From an uncultured bacterium (lineage in GTDB: Bacteria > Bipolaricaulota > Bipolaricaulia > UBA7950 > UBA9294): a stretch of DNA of 59,175 bases. A program made the translations under genes and the position numbers. The DNA is taken from contig CAIOGO010000022.1 in assembly GCA_903857865.1 (NCBI GenBank), positions 1 to 59,175 of the forward strand, in the 5' to 3' direction. This document shows, piece after piece, positions 3,299 through 58,414 of this stretch. The first letter of the stretch is position 1. The number at the start of each line of letters is the position of its first letter. A model generated the notes under the pieces. It worked only from the letters and a program-made list of their open reading frames with translations. It was not told where the DNA came from and searched no databases.

Positions 3299-3469
3299 GT
3301 TCAAGAGTAGTCCCGTAGAGGGTAAAGAGGAAGAGGGGTCATCGCGACCCCTCTTCCTCTTTGCGTTTGGATGCTCTTGAATCTCCTGAGTTCGCATCTA
3401 CCCAATCCGGCGAACTCCCTAGCTACCCGCAGGGTAGCCGGGTTCCCAAATCCCTCCTGGCGTATAGAC
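3299..3469. repeat. Structured interspersed repeat, copy A
   Basis: About 170 bp, sharing several blocks with copy B (7373-7624). Both start GTTCAAGAGTAGTCCCGTAG, share a GGATGCTCT(T/C)GAATC block and GCGAACTCCCTAGCT, and end with a CAAATCCCTCC block and GGCGTA. Outside these limits the two loci differ, which marks the ends. At 3410-3438 GCGAACTCCCTAGCT runs into hairpin GCTACCC/GGGTAGC with loop GCA. An outer stem AATCCGGC/GCCGGGTT (3404-3411 with 3437-3444) encloses it. The repeat resembles a REP/MITE-like element; its function is unknown. Confidence 0.7.
3324..3362. repeat. Perfect 17-bp inverted repeat (hairpin) inside repeat copy A
   Basis: AAAGAGGAAGAGGGGTC, a 5-base loop ATCGC, then the exact complement ending CCTCTTCCTCTTT. 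The A-rich left end and T-rich right end make it look like a bidirectional intrinsic terminator. Copy B has unrelated sequence at this position, so the hairpin is special to copy A. Confidence 0.75.
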
Positions 3470-3814
3470 AGGCCTTCCGAAGAGCCTTTGCTCGCGAGAC
3501 CCGACGGGACGGACTAGCTGCCGCAGTCCTTTCAGCAGGAATGCATCTGCCGCTTTGAGAGCCTCGATCAACGGCGTTCGAATCCCCTTGGCTCTGCCGA
3601 CCTGTTCCTCGCGTTGTCGCCCCACCTCGTACCGCGACCTAGGCGAGGCACGCGGGAGTGCTACGCCTCACCTGTGGCCCACAGTGTCGACCCGAGTGTA
3701 CCCACTGGCCTGACGCTCTCGTGACAGAATGAGTTGGCCCCTAGCCGGAGCTCGTATACCTTCCATCCCATTAGGATGAGAGGATGGCAGAGGTGTGCAT
3801 GAAGAGGTACGAAC

Positions 3815-6800
3815 ATGAGGCATGAGTTGCATCCCAAGCGCATCGGCGCTGCAGGAACTTGGAAGCTATTCCAAAGGCTGCTGCAGCGGCCCACAACAGG
3901 CATCGGGCAGCAGTTGCGGGAAGCGGCGTTGCGGTATGACGCCTTGTTCAACCACTCTTCTGACGGAGTGTTCATTCTGAGCTTAGATGGTGTTTATCTT
4001 GAAGTCAGTCCACGTGGTGCCAAGATGTTCGGTTACGAGTCTCACGAGCTAATCGGTAAACCTATCACCGCGACAGTCGATCCCGGCGAGCAATCGAGCG
4101 GCAGAAGACAAGCTGTCGGCGCTCTTGGAAGGAAAAGCGATCCCCCTTTACGAGAGAACCTTCCGCGCGAAGGATGGAACCCAAGTTCCTGTGGAGATTG
4201 ACCTCACCCTAGTACGCGACTCAAACGGAAAGCCAGCATACATCCAGAGCGTGGTGCGTGACATCTCTCACCGCAAGCGCCTGGAAGAGAAGTCGCGCCG
4301 GACTACGCGTGCACTGGGGACACTGAGTCAGGGGCACCAAATCCCGCTACGCGCAGAGGACGAGCTGGCCGAGAGAGAGGAGACGCATCGCTCCATCCTC
4401 GAGCGGGCAAGTGATGGCGTTGCGATCATTCAGGACATGACTATTCGCTACGCCAACCCGCGTCTGGCGGAGATCTGGGGTGTACTCGTCTCAGAGGTGA
4501 TTGGAGCATCGATTGCCGACCACCTCCAGCAGGACGAACTCGATCGTCTGGCAGACCAGTACAAGCGCCGGTTAGCGGGAGAGAACGTTCCGGCCCTCTA
4601 CGAGACGTCTCTGCAACGGCGCGATGGCAGCGAGATATTCGTCGAGGTAAGTGCCGGCCTGATCGCGTACGAGGGGAGGCCCGCCGATCTCATTCTCGTG
4701 CGGGACATCACGGAGCGGAGGCGTACCGAAGAGGCTGTGCGGCGAAGCGAGGAGCGGTATCGGCGCATCGTTGAGACCGCACAAGAAGGTATCTGGGTGA
4801 CCGACGCGGAGAATCGGACCACCTTCGTCAACAAGAAAATGGCGGACATGCTGGGCTGTACGGTTGACGAGATGGTAGGCGCCTCGGCGTTCACTTTCAT
4901 TGCCAAGGAGGACAGGGCAAAGGCGGCTGGGCATATTGAGCGTCGCCGTCAGGGGGTCTCAGAGCAGCTTGACTTCAGGTTTCTTCGCAAGGACGGGACG
5001 GATCTGTGGACTCTCCTCAAGTCGAGTCCCATTCAGGACGAAGACGGAAACTACGCCGGTGTGCTCAGGATGATCACTGACATCACCGAGCGCAAGCGTG
5101 CGGAGGAAACCCTGCGCGAGAGCGAGCGCCGATACGCGGCGTTGTTCGAACACCCCAACGACGGTGTCTTCATCTTCAGCCCAGACGGCGTCGAGCTTGC
5201 CGTCAACGAGCGCGGGGCCGAGATGCTCGGCTACGAGGTTCACGAGCTTGTGGGAAAGCCTCTAGTCTACGACCCGGCGGAGTACGCCGACGTCTTGCGG
5301 AAGCGAGCCGAGGTCTTCGCCGGCCGGACAATCCCACCCTACGAGCGCACGTTCCGTGCTAAGGATGGGTCGCCGGTCCTGGTCGAGGTTAACCTCACCG
5401 TGGTGCGCGACGCCGAGAAGCGTCCCCTCTACCTCCAGAGCATCGTGCGGGACATTCGCGAGCGCAAACGTACCGAGGAACGCCTCCGGGAGAGCGAGGA
5501 GCGTTTCCGACGGATCTTCGAGGAGGGCCCGCTCGGCGTGGTGACGTCCGACTCGAGCTTCCGCTTCACCCGAGCCAATTCGGCGTTCTGCAGTATGCTC
5601 GGCTACACAGAAGAGGAGCTCACTTCCCTTACGTTCCAGGAGATCACCCACCCGGCCGACGTCGGCACCGACACCGAGCAGGTAAGAAGGCTCTTCCGCG
5701 GAGAGATCCCACTCTACCGGACCGAGAAACGCTACATCCGCAAGGACAAGGCACCGCTTTGGGGAGCAGTGACCGTAACTGTGGTTCGCGACTCAGAGGG
5801 GAAGTTCCTCTACTTTCTCGCCATGATCGAGGACATCACGTCGCGGAGAGATGCGGAGGAAACGGTGCGTTCCCTCGCTCGTTTCCCAGAGGAGGACCCA
5901 AGCCCCGTACTGCGCGTCGCGGCGGACGGGAGGATCCTCTATGCGAACCGGTCAAGCGCGCGCCTGCTCGAAGCCTGGAAGGGAGGCGTAGGCAAGGCCA
6001 TTCCCGAGCGCTACCGAAACTGCGTTCGGGAAGCTCTCCAGGGAGGTATTCTCACTGATGAGGGGGAGATCGCCGGCCGCGTCCTGTTCCTGACCTTCGC
6101 TGCGATACCGGCCGAGGGATACGTCAACGTCTATGGACTCGATATCACGAAGCTTCGCGAAACGGAGAAGGCCCTTGCCGAAAGCGAAGCCGAGCACAGG
6201 GAGCTGGTGGAAAACGCCAGCGACCTGATCTACACGCATGATCTCCGCGGGAAGATCACCTCGCTCAACTCGACCGCCCAGCTGGTCACCGGCTACTCCG
6301 CGCACGAGCTTGTGGGGAAGGACATCGACCTCATCGTAGCCCCGGAGTATCGCAAGCACGCGCGGGCTATGAGTGCAGCGAAGCTTCGAAGTGAGGGCTC
6401 GACGGTCTGCGAGGTGGGGATCGTCGCCAAGGACGGACACCAAACGCCCGTTGAAGTCAGCAGTCGCCTCATCTACAAGGGTGGGAAGCCCGTCGGGGTA
6501 CAAGGGATCGCGCGCGACATCACCGAGCGCAGGGAGGCCTCTGATCGGCTGAGGAAGTCCCTGGACGGGACGATCAAAGCCGTTGCCCGGACCACGGAGA
6601 TGAGGGACCCGTACACCGCCGGGCATCAGGAGCGGGTGAGCCGATTAGGGTGCGCGATCGCGAAGAGGATGGGGCTTAGCGCGGAGACGGTGGAAGGCCT
6701 GCGCGTGGCCGGGCTCCTCCACGACGTGGGCAAGGTCTCCGTGCCTGCAGAGATCCTCAGCAAACCGACGACCCTGACGTCGATCGAGTTCAGCCTCGTG

Positions 6801-7151
6801 AAGGCGCATGCCCAGACCGGCCACGATATTCTCGCGGGGATCGACTTCCCCTGGCCGGTGGCGGAGATCGTCCTGCAGCACCACGAGCGCCTGAACGGTT
6901 CGGGCTACCCGCGGGGACTCAAGGGCGAGGCGATCTCGCTTGAGGCGAGGATCATCGCCGTGGCCGACGTCGTCGAGGCGATGGCCTCCCACCGCCCCTA
7001 TCGACCTGCTCACGGCCTGGACCAGGCCCTAGCAGAACTGGAAACGGGAGCGGGTGTGCTGTATGACTTCGAAGTCGTCAAGGCGTGCCTGGCATTGTTC
7101 CAGCAAGGCTATGAGCTTTCTCGGCCACTTCCTGAGGATAAGCAAGTCTGA
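3815..7151 (+). CDS. Multi-PAS sensor HD-GYP phosphodiesterase, disrupted by a 1-nt frameshift
   Basis: One gene read in two frames: 3815-about 4100, then continuing to 7151. The first frame carries the N-terminal half of a PAS domain (FNHSSDGVFILSLDG to VDPGEQSS). The second carries its end (LYERTFRAKDG) and six more PAS/PAC units, then HD-GYP. Removing one base near 4100 makes the first PAS align without gaps to the fourth, with exactly 18 residues between DP and the IP(L/P)YERTF motif. The C-terminal 170 residues hold HDVGK and HHERLNGSGYPRGL, the metal-binding and GYP motifs of c-di-GMP phosphodiesterases. No membrane segment is seen, so it is probably a cytoplasmic sensor. ATG 3815 follows GAAGAGG. 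The frameshift is either an inactivating mutation or a sequence error; a TTG restart at 4125 would give 1008 residues. Confidence 0.8.
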
Positions 7152-7748
7152 GAGGTCGTCGCTTGTCTCAGGGCGCTTTTTCTCAAGCTCTTGCCTACGC
7201 GGCAACGGCCTGCGTCTAGTGCCAGATCGAGGTGGAAGGGGTTGGGATACCAGAGACAAGGTGCCGCCTAAAGGAGGTAGACGCCCCGCTGCGTGGCGAG
7301 AAGCGCGCGTTTGACCCACTTCTTCGGCGACGGCCAGAAGCTTGCGGAACTCCTCCACACGACCGCCGCCGAGTTCAAGAGTAGTCCCGTAGAGGGTAAT
7401 CGCGGAGCCGCCGCCATATCAACAAGGAGTTCGCATCTCGCGGCCAGCGAACTCCCTAGCTCCTCGAAGAGGAGCCACCTGGCCGCGATTCCGTGATTGC
7501 GGCTGGATGCTCTCGAATCCCCGGAGTCCACGACGAACAAGCCGTGCGAACTCCCTAGCTGTCCGAAGGACAGCCGTTGCCCCGCAGGGTGGCCGGGGTT
7601 CACAAATCCCTCCGGGCGTACAGCCCGATACGGGGCCAAATGCCGCAAGTGAAGATCTGAACATTCCTCTTGGATTGTCAGGTCACCGCTTGGCTTGCTC
7701 GCGATTGGAGCCGTCTCGATCGCCCTCTGCGCCAGACAGCCGAGCCAT
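7152..7748. other. Intergenic stretch carrying repeat copy B and a RAYT-end half-site
   Basis: No gene supported. Bases 7373-7624 are repeat copy B. At 7648-7660 AGTGAAGATCTGA matches the end of the RAYT unit (8942-9865). Bases 7152-7372 and 7661-7748 show nothing recognisable. Confidence 0.5.
7373..7624. repeat. Structured interspersed repeat, copy B
   Basis: Longer copy (about 250 bp) of the repeat at 3299-3469, with two hairpin units. At 7447-7475 GCGAACTCCCTAGCT leads into stem GCTCCTC/GAGGAGC. At 7546-7574 the same lead runs into GCTGTCC/GGACAGC. Both have loop GAA. An outer stem CGCGGCCAG (7439-7447) pairs with CTGGCCGCG (7479-7487). Stem sequences differ from copy A but pairing is kept, so the structure appears selected or copied by a structure-dependent mechanism. 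Confidence 0.7.
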
Positions 7749-8941: not shown

Positions 8942-8959
8942 TGGGGTCAGATCTTCACT
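8942..8959. repeat. Left end of the RAYT unit
   Basis: TGGGGTCAGATCTTCACT; perfect inverted partner at 9848-9865. Confidence 0.8.
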
Positions 8960-8988
8960 TATCGCGTAGAATCGGGTAGACTCCTCCC

Positions 8989-9852
8989 ATGGCACGCCCC
9001 CTGCGTGTAGAGTACGAAGGCGCCGTGTACCACGTTACGGGCCGCGGCAACGCCCGGCAGGACATCTTCCTCATTGACCCAGATCGCGAGCTGTTCCTCG
9101 AGACGCTCGGCGGCACAGTCAGCCGCTTCGGTTGGGTCTGTCATGCCTACTGCCTAATGACGAATCACTATCACCTTCTCGTCGAGACGCCAGAGGCCAA
9201 CCTATCGCGCGGGATGCGACACTTGAACGGCGTCTACACCCAGGCATTCAACCGCCGGCACATGCGAACAGGCCATGTGCTGCAAGGCCGATTCAAAGCG
9301 ATCCTCGTCGAGAAGGAGACTCATCTGCTCGAACTGGCACGGTACGTTGTGCTGAACCCCGTACGGGCACGAGCTGTTCGGAGCGCCCGCGACTGGTCGT
9401 GGTCAAGCTACCGTGCGACGGCGGGCATGGTGGACGTGCCCGACTTCCTCACGACGAGCTGGATCCTGGCGCAGTTCCATCGGAGCCCTCGCCGCGCGAT
9501 CGAACTCTACCGCAAGTTCGTGAAGCAGGGCCGTGGCGTCGACGCGTGGGCCGAGCTGCGGGGTGGCATTCTGCTGGGCAGCGACGAGTTCGTGGACAAG
9601 CTCAAGCCACTGCTCTCGGACTACGAGGCGCTGAAGGAGGTTCCGCGCCGCGAGCGGCTCGCTACCCGACCGAGCCTTGACGAGCTCTTCTCCAAGGTAC
9701 GAGACAAGAAGGCACGTGACCGGCAGATCCATGCAGCCACCCGCGTCCACGAGTACACGCTTCAGGCAGTCGCTGACTTCCTCGGTCTCCACTACTCGAC
9801 CATCAGCATGATCGCGAAGCGCATTGCTGAGGACGAGAAACACCAAGAGTGA
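8989..9852 (+). CDS. REP-associated tyrosine transposase (Y1_Tnp / IS200-like superfamily)
   Basis: 287 residues. The N-terminal half has the Y1 HUH fold: YHVTGRGNARQDIF, then AYCLMTNHYHLLVETP with the HxH metal ligands (HYH), then YVVLNPVRA. The catalytic Tyr should be in the YTQAFNRRH helix or the ARYVVLNPVR helix. The C-terminal 60 residues end in an HTH (LQAVADFLGLHYSTISMIAK) like the DnaA/Xre-type tail of long RAYTs. Members cut and join single-stranded DNA at REP hairpins; here the covarying hairpin repeats nearby are candidate substrates. ATG 8989 has only a weak GGGTAG upstream. The gene is intact. Confidence 0.9.
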   Translation: MARPLRVEYEGAVYHVTGRGNARQDIFLIDPDRELFLETLGGTVSRFGWVCHAYCLMTNHYHLLVETPEANLSRGMRHLNGVYTQAFNRRHMRTGHVLQGRFKAILVEKETHLLELARYVVLNPVRARAVRSARDWSWSSYRATAGMVDVPDFLTTSWILAQFHRSPRRAIELYRKFVKQGRGVDAWAELRGGILLGSDEFVDKLKPLLSDYEALKEVPRRERLATRPSLDELFSKVRDKKARDRQIHAATRVHEYTLQAVADFLGLHYSTISMIAKRIAEDEKHQE

Positions 9853-9865
9853 AGATCTGACCCCA
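9848..9865. repeat. Right end of the RAYT unit
   Basis: AGTGAAGATCTGACCCCA, exact reverse complement of 8942-8959; overlaps the transposase stop codon (9850-9852). Confidence 0.8.

Positions 9866-58052: not shown

Positions 58053-58414
<362 letters not shown>

Follow-up and report, generated by a model that had tools for sequence, protein, structure and literature searches.

The window analysed here is a 59,175-nucleotide (nt) stretch (contig CAIOGO010000022.1) of the 2.24-Mb genome of a Candidatus Bipolaricaulota bacterium, referred to as G000, and it carries three copies of a previously undescribed family of two-hairpin repeats that we name AB (Table 1). The element has the general form GGAGTTnnn-loop-nnnAACTCC-CTA-GCnnnnn-loop-nnnnnGC-C and is approximately 45-85 nt long. 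In alignments, hairpin A has the fixed foot GGAGTT/AACTCC and is joined by the link CTA to hairpin B, whose fixed foot is GC...GC(C), while the inner stem letters vary freely provided that pairing stays.

An earlier note on this DNA had described three hairpins with a common lead. The 15-nt lead, GCGAACTCCCTAGCT, indeed occurs in exactly three exact copies in the window (3410-3424, 7447-7461 and 7546-7560), followed by the stems that the note had drawn, and the 7-nt B arms pair perfectly in all three. With up to three mismatches allowed, six matches are found against 1.86 expected, a number reached by no shuffle. The note had counted four variable stem pairs, all compensated; the variable pairs number three of seven (GCTACCC, GCTCCTC and GCTGTCC), and all three are compensated. 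It overlooked the upstream hairpin A in every window copy, of which the lead doubles as the 3' arm, as well as the tRNA connection described below. The letters of the second, outer stem that it took for a shared feature are present in the window, but loop A can pair with the downstream flank over 6 bp or more in only 2 of 23 copies, compared with 1.3 when loops and flanks are swapped among copies, and a common outer stem or pseudoknot was rejected on this count. At the second window copy, this outer pairing may have arisen because AB inserted into a different hairpin.

Table 1 Positions of AB elements, composite-unit parts and the neighbouring transposase in the window
Feature	Position	Strand	Details
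AB element 1	3387..3439	+	Stem A 3387-3395/3410-3418, link CTA, stem B 3422-3428/3432-3438; model match 42.1 bits
AB element 2	7426..7476	+	Stem A 7426-7434/7447-7455, stem B 7459-7465/7469-7475; model match 44.5 bits
AB element 3 (unit b's own)	7523..7575	+	Stem A 7523-7531/7546-7554 (imperfect), stem B 7558-7564/7568-7574; model match 30.8 bits
5' marker repeat, composite unit a	3299..3324	+	GTTCAAGAGTAGTCCCGTAGAGGGTA, T-arm/acceptor-like; identical in both window units
Long perfect hairpin H, unit a	3324..3362	+	17-bp arms, 5-nt loop
tRNA-Arg(tcg) 3'-end copy, unit a	3440..3464	+	GGGTTCCCAAATCCCTCCTGGCGTA, altered T-loop; best of 31 tRNA ends is own tRNA-Arg(tcg)
5' marker repeat, composite unit b	7373..7398	+	Identical to 3299-3324
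tRNA-Arg(tcg) 3'-end copy, unit b	7595..7620	+	GGGGTTCACAAATCCCTCCGGGCGTA; best match is G000 tRNA-Arg(tcg)
Tyrosine transposase flanked by terminal inverted repeats (TIRs)	8942..9865 (gene 8989-9852)	+	Pfam Y1_Tnp 37.7 bits; TIRs 8942-8959 and 9848-9865

A family of double hairpins in the Bipolaricaulaceae

The earlier note had proposed an interspersed repeat with covarying stems and had suggested a covariance-model search of the genome, naming a lack of further copies or a loss of pairing as outcomes that would speak against it. Neither was seen, and the proposal is borne out by many more copies: a model built from 27 of them, with loops trimmed to 4 nt, finds 65 AB copies in 35 clusters in G000 at a cut-off of E<=1e-3. 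Under stricter filters, the same search across the phylum (100 genomes in total) detects 1-24 copies in each of 12 relatives of the same family and zero matches in the other 87 genomes. The 13 carriers fall into the genera g1 (4/4), g6 (3/3), g12 (4/5), g5 (1/1) and g9 (1/4). The count for the G000 assembly is probably an underestimate because contigs end within AB tandem arrays or units, as at the end of contig C16 (L065) and the end of C2 (L064).

Conservation of the fold is evident at sites chosen regardless of pairing, by means of the 11-nt anchor AACTCCCTAGC, which has 22 exact matches in G000. A perfect 7-bp B stem is present at 17 of these (control rate in the same sequences, 1.4%), and 16 have a stem A with at least eight of nine pairs (control, 3.0%). 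This test provides the unbiased evidence for fold conservation, because the larger alignment of 142 distinct model hits is itself fitted to the model; in that alignment, 97.0% of cells are paired and the covariation score is 0.34 against 0.09 in shuffled alignments. In the 27-row alignment, with rows picked partly for pairing, the corresponding values are 97.5% and 0.53, with 0.15 in shuffles. Mismatches in the stems comprise 19 G.T and 13 A.C, both of them small counts from a model-fitted alignment.

The earlier note had recognised no repetitive extragenic palindromic (REP) sequence, integron attachment site (attC) or riboswitch in the repeat. AB lacks a GTAG or CGTC tag and attC core sites, Rfam gave no match to it at or near the gathering score, and ten AB loci contained no tyrT/rttR-type repeat RNA at E<=0.05. 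A known Rfam family can be set aside as a candidate. A literature search covering few subscription papers returned no report of such repeats in Bipolaricaulota or of tRNA-linked hairpin repeats. AB is REP-like in the broad sense of a short, palindromic, interspersed and intergenic sequence in many copies, its intergenic position being read from the window copies and tRNA spacers. It is a clean case of an interspersed repeat that keeps two stems through free drift of its sequence.

Some AB elements form arrays with a period of approximately 75 nt among small toxin-antitoxin-type genes (nucleotidyltransferase/HepT, HicA, MazF/PemK and PIN), a setting that recalls cassette arrays. Examples are L061 (G000:C10:28500-34500) and L252 (G075:C104:5500-8005).

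AB elements and duplicated tRNA ends

AB elements are found beside tRNA genes. Within G000, a tRNA gene is found no more than 500 bp from 22 of the 65 copies and from 7 of the 35 clusters, where 0.49 clusters are expected; this enrichment is overstated because the null is the whole genome while AB is mainly intergenic. Filled and empty sites can be compared in one tRNA cluster, Pro(cgg)-Gly(tcc)-Arg(tct)-His(gtg)-Arg(tcg), whose orthologues are present across the family. Among AB-free genomes, the Gly/Arg and His/Arg spacers measure 7-18 nt in the seven with both readable; the full spacer series, in nt, are 8-9-16-18 (G098), 8-9-7-14 (G097), 8-18-7-13 (G073), 14-13-12-16 (G082) and 7-10-7-11 (G078). 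In G000, G071, G077 and G074, by comparison, the Gly/Arg spacer is 184-312 nt and the His/Arg spacer 146-410 nt, both occupied by AB-type hairpins, while the Pro/Gly and Arg/His spacers are still 2-15 nt. In each of these four genomes, the B hairpin closest to tRNA-Arg stops a few nt from the gene. Because only the two spacers before tRNA-Arg are long in these four carriers and both are short in those AB-free genomes, the AB stretches in this cluster are most simply read as insertions; the less simple alternative would be losses in all AB-free genera. G086, with one AB match, and G085, with zero, have long His/Arg spacers without recognisable AB, and spacer length alone is therefore not diagnostic.

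On the 3' side of tRNA-Arg and tRNA-Leu genes, AB forms part of a composite unit in which the tRNA is followed by a long hairpin H, a spacer, AB and a second copy of the same tRNA from the T-loop to the 3' end. The tail copies contain 1-2 additional nt in the T-loop, and in almost every case their best match is the cognate tRNA (Leu, Arg tcg, Arg ccg and Arg gcg), with ties or near-ties for G074 and for tRNA-Leu(caa) of G070. Tandem units are found at tRNA-Leu in G069 and at tRNA-Arg(tcg) in G077 and G000. A tRNA 3' end starting in the T-loop is thus duplicated in tandem downstream of its own tRNA, which is the mark of tyrT/rttR-type repeats.

Units also exist far from any tRNA, on C14 and C4 with an Arg(ccg) tail and at both window loci (3299-3464 and 7373-7620) with an Arg(tcg) tail in its G000-specific form. 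A recent dispersed copy is seen in the unit at C14:1704-1798, which matches the 3' flank of tRNA-Arg(ccg) on C2 with 100% identity across 95 bp. At L063 1369-1810 (G000:C4:34868-35309), three tandem units share a similar spacer, AB and tRNA tail. Units 1 and 3 are 96% identical over 97 bp, yet their H hairpins are unrelated; each H of the locus differs in sequence, with pairing still kept. AB element 2 sits as a nested copy in window unit b, with the marker on one side and the spacer on the other.

The 26-nt marker that opens both window units is a separate repeat of the family, its pattern being present in 20 of 33 family genomes including AB-free ones. This marker, GTTCRARAGTWGTCCNRTARRGNGTA, resembles a decayed tRNA T-arm and acceptor end; it is followed by CCAG in some cases, and some copies stand in tandem with an inverted partner.

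Proposed mobility and alternative origins of AB

On balance, we favour the reading of AB as a short, non-autonomous, REP-like mobile DNA element of some Bipolaricaulaceae that is recognised by its fold and accumulates at tRNA genes. An enzyme encoded elsewhere would recognise the folded, probably single-stranded, double hairpin together with its fixed foot letters, and would copy or move AB, often to sites where the B end abuts a tRNA gene. At tRNA-Arg and tRNA-Leu genes, AB would have joined a larger unit (tRNA 3' end, H, spacer, AB and second tRNA 3' end), which may multiply in tandem and may also have moved to tRNA-free places, including both window loci. The data show the copy number, the covariation, insertion into spacers that relatives keep short, duplicated cognate tRNA ends and a recent dispersed copy, and from these we infer mobility as DNA, recognition by fold, and the existence and kind of the mobilising enzyme. 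The nested AB element 2 in the window counts as support for insertion. Similarly, the lack of a clear G.U bias is as expected for a fold that acts as DNA, because selection on a transcript should favour G.U and no clear excess is seen.

Several points weigh against this reading. No mobilising enzyme was found: a Pfam scan of 116 neighbouring open reading frames (ORFs), taken from longest-ORF calls, revealed no shared mobility gene beside AB among the families listed. Neither a clean target-site duplication nor a terminal inverted repeat was defined for the element. The tRNA enrichment is overstated, as described above, and the mismatches behind the G.U argument are few and drawn from an alignment fitted to the model. 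Finally, the position of AB directly 5' of tRNA-Arg in four genera could mean a selected function at the RNA level.

Such a function, in which the hairpins serve as leaders, trailers or small RNAs of tRNA transcripts (in processing, termination or as an RttR-like RNA) and are selected and spread by duplication, is an unlikely but serious alternative. It would agree with the B hairpins that abut tRNA genes, at the 5' or the 3' end, in several genera, and with a unit layout like that of E. coli tyrV/rttR, where a T-loop-to-CCA end returns at 178-bp intervals in a stretch with an annotated small RNA. However, many relatives have the same tRNA cluster intact and free of AB, and 28 of the 35 clusters in G000 are not within 500 bp of a tRNA gene. 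The orientation of AB relative to the tRNA is not constant either, being forward at Arg and Leu and reversed after Ser, and the stems have neither a clear G.U preference nor a match in Rfam. Were an RNA-level role true, AB would constitute an added structural layer in bacterial tRNA transcripts.

It is less probable still that the units are scars left by small elements that integrated site-specifically at the 3' ends of tRNA genes, with a tyrosine recombinase using the T-loop-to-3'-end segment as its attachment core and tandem units recording repeated integrations. Tails that match their own cognate tRNA and tandem units with different H hairpins speak for such a history, as do the 1-2 extra T-loop nt, which are expected if the left part derives from the element. 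On the other hand, it covers composite units only and leaves AB copies 5' of tRNA-Arg or in tRNA-free arrays unexplained. The three tyrosine recombinase genes of G000 are each on another contig or separated by >28 kb from every listed AB copy, and the units away from tRNA genes open with another marker repeat, one that is found without AB too.

The earlier note had linked the repeat to the nearby transposase gene at 8989-9852 as a REP-associated tyrosine transposase (RAYT), which would make AB a REP or bacterial interspersed mosaic element mobilised by it. This link did not hold. The gene, which has relatives at 77-90% identity in Bipolaricaulis/Bipolaricaulota metagenome-assembled genomes, lies between its own 18-bp inverted repeats, beginning GGGGTCAG after one T, and is not flanked by the AB repeat as a REP/RAYT pair requires. 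Its TIRs are of the GGGGWSAS type, which is unrelated to REPs and flanks a class of tyrosine transposases termed TIRYT (PMC3733652); the gene fits this class well, and its TIRs are unrelated to AB. Although AB elements are short, palindromic, intergenic, clustered and found in both orientations, although a Y1 transposase exists in 11 of the 13 AB genomes, and although two of the four such genes in G000 have AB upstream, at approximately 0.6 and 1.4 kb, mobilisation by RAYT is close to refuted: the transposase has its own TIRs, the other two genes have no AB within 2 kb, the GTAG or CGTC tetranucleotide expected at a palindrome end is absent from the AB alignments (feet GGAGTT/AACTCC and CTAGC...GCC), G075 lacks a Y1 gene but has 19 AB copies, and 44 of the 87 AB-free genomes carry such a gene. 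The second carrier in which Y1 is missing is G071 (nine AB copies; 67% complete). We judge that the transposase is not part of the AB repeat system.

Two further features were seen in the window. A multi-PAS protein with a C-terminal HD domain is encoded at 3815-7151; its upstream ORF (3815-4201) is out of frame with the main ORF (4125-7151), which may point to a frameshift or an error of assembly at about 4100-4200. A transfer-messenger RNA gene lies at 58053-58414, and its predicted tag, ANTTTATYAFAAPSYN, is one that we take to be unusual beside common tags with LAA-type ends.

AB among known repeat systems

AB shares with REPs of the GTAG and CGTC superfamilies its short palindromic form, intergenic position, clustering and high copy number, and CGTC REPs are likewise without a dedicated transposase (PMC3733652). 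It differs from them in lacking either tag, in having two adjacent hairpins in fixed order with highly variable stems, and in its strong tRNA association. Naming the enzyme behind AB would explain the spread of such repeats in the absence of a RAYT, and the same question applies to CGTC REPs.

Integron attC sites resemble AB in forming arrays of hairpins in which structure is kept and sequence varies, some of them beside toxin-antitoxin genes. The AB foot is GGAGTT...AACTCC, in contrast to RYYYAAC...GTTRRRY in attC, and no RYYYAAC/GTTRRRY sites were found in a search of L318-L320. Identity with attC was rejected: the core sites are absent from the AB consensus, and an integron integrase scores above the cut-off only in AB-free G096 and G099. 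These two genes (G096:C137:12328-13230 and G099:C39:3047-3988) belong to Bipolaricaulaceae genomes; the window's own genome holds only a partial integrase fragment with an in-frame stop (G000:C16:5643-6159). As for classical miniature inverted-repeat transposable elements, no TIR is evident in AB, and the junctions with empty tRNA spacers are too diverged to define a target-site duplication.

A close likeness is to the E. coli tyrT locus, with its 178-bp repeats each containing a tRNA-Tyr tail. In NC_000913.3, the tail AATCCTTCCCCCACCACCA, a tRNA 3' end of approximately 19 nt, repeats at 178-bp steps downstream of tyrV, starts inside the T-loop and has hairpin-rich sequence before each copy. 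AB units have the same kind of breakpoint, in the T-loop, and likewise form tandems in which hairpins come before each tRNA tail. The E. coli case is one locus with one tRNA, whereas AB involves at least five tRNA species in several genera, has dispersed tRNA-free copies and contains a conserved double hairpin. The two are alike in layout, and common descent is not claimed. We know of no explanation for the origin of the E. coli arrangement, in which a tRNA tail is repeated with hairpins. A tentative and rather doubtful extension is that AB represents a new class of mobile repeat, recognised as a folded double hairpin and with tRNA genes as its home site, which would copy the host T-loop-to-3'-end into new units and spread such tails genome-wide, the E. 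coli tyrT repeats being an isolated relic. AB provides a naturally replicated case of the tyrT arrangement, at several tRNA genes and in several genera, with both empty and filled sites.

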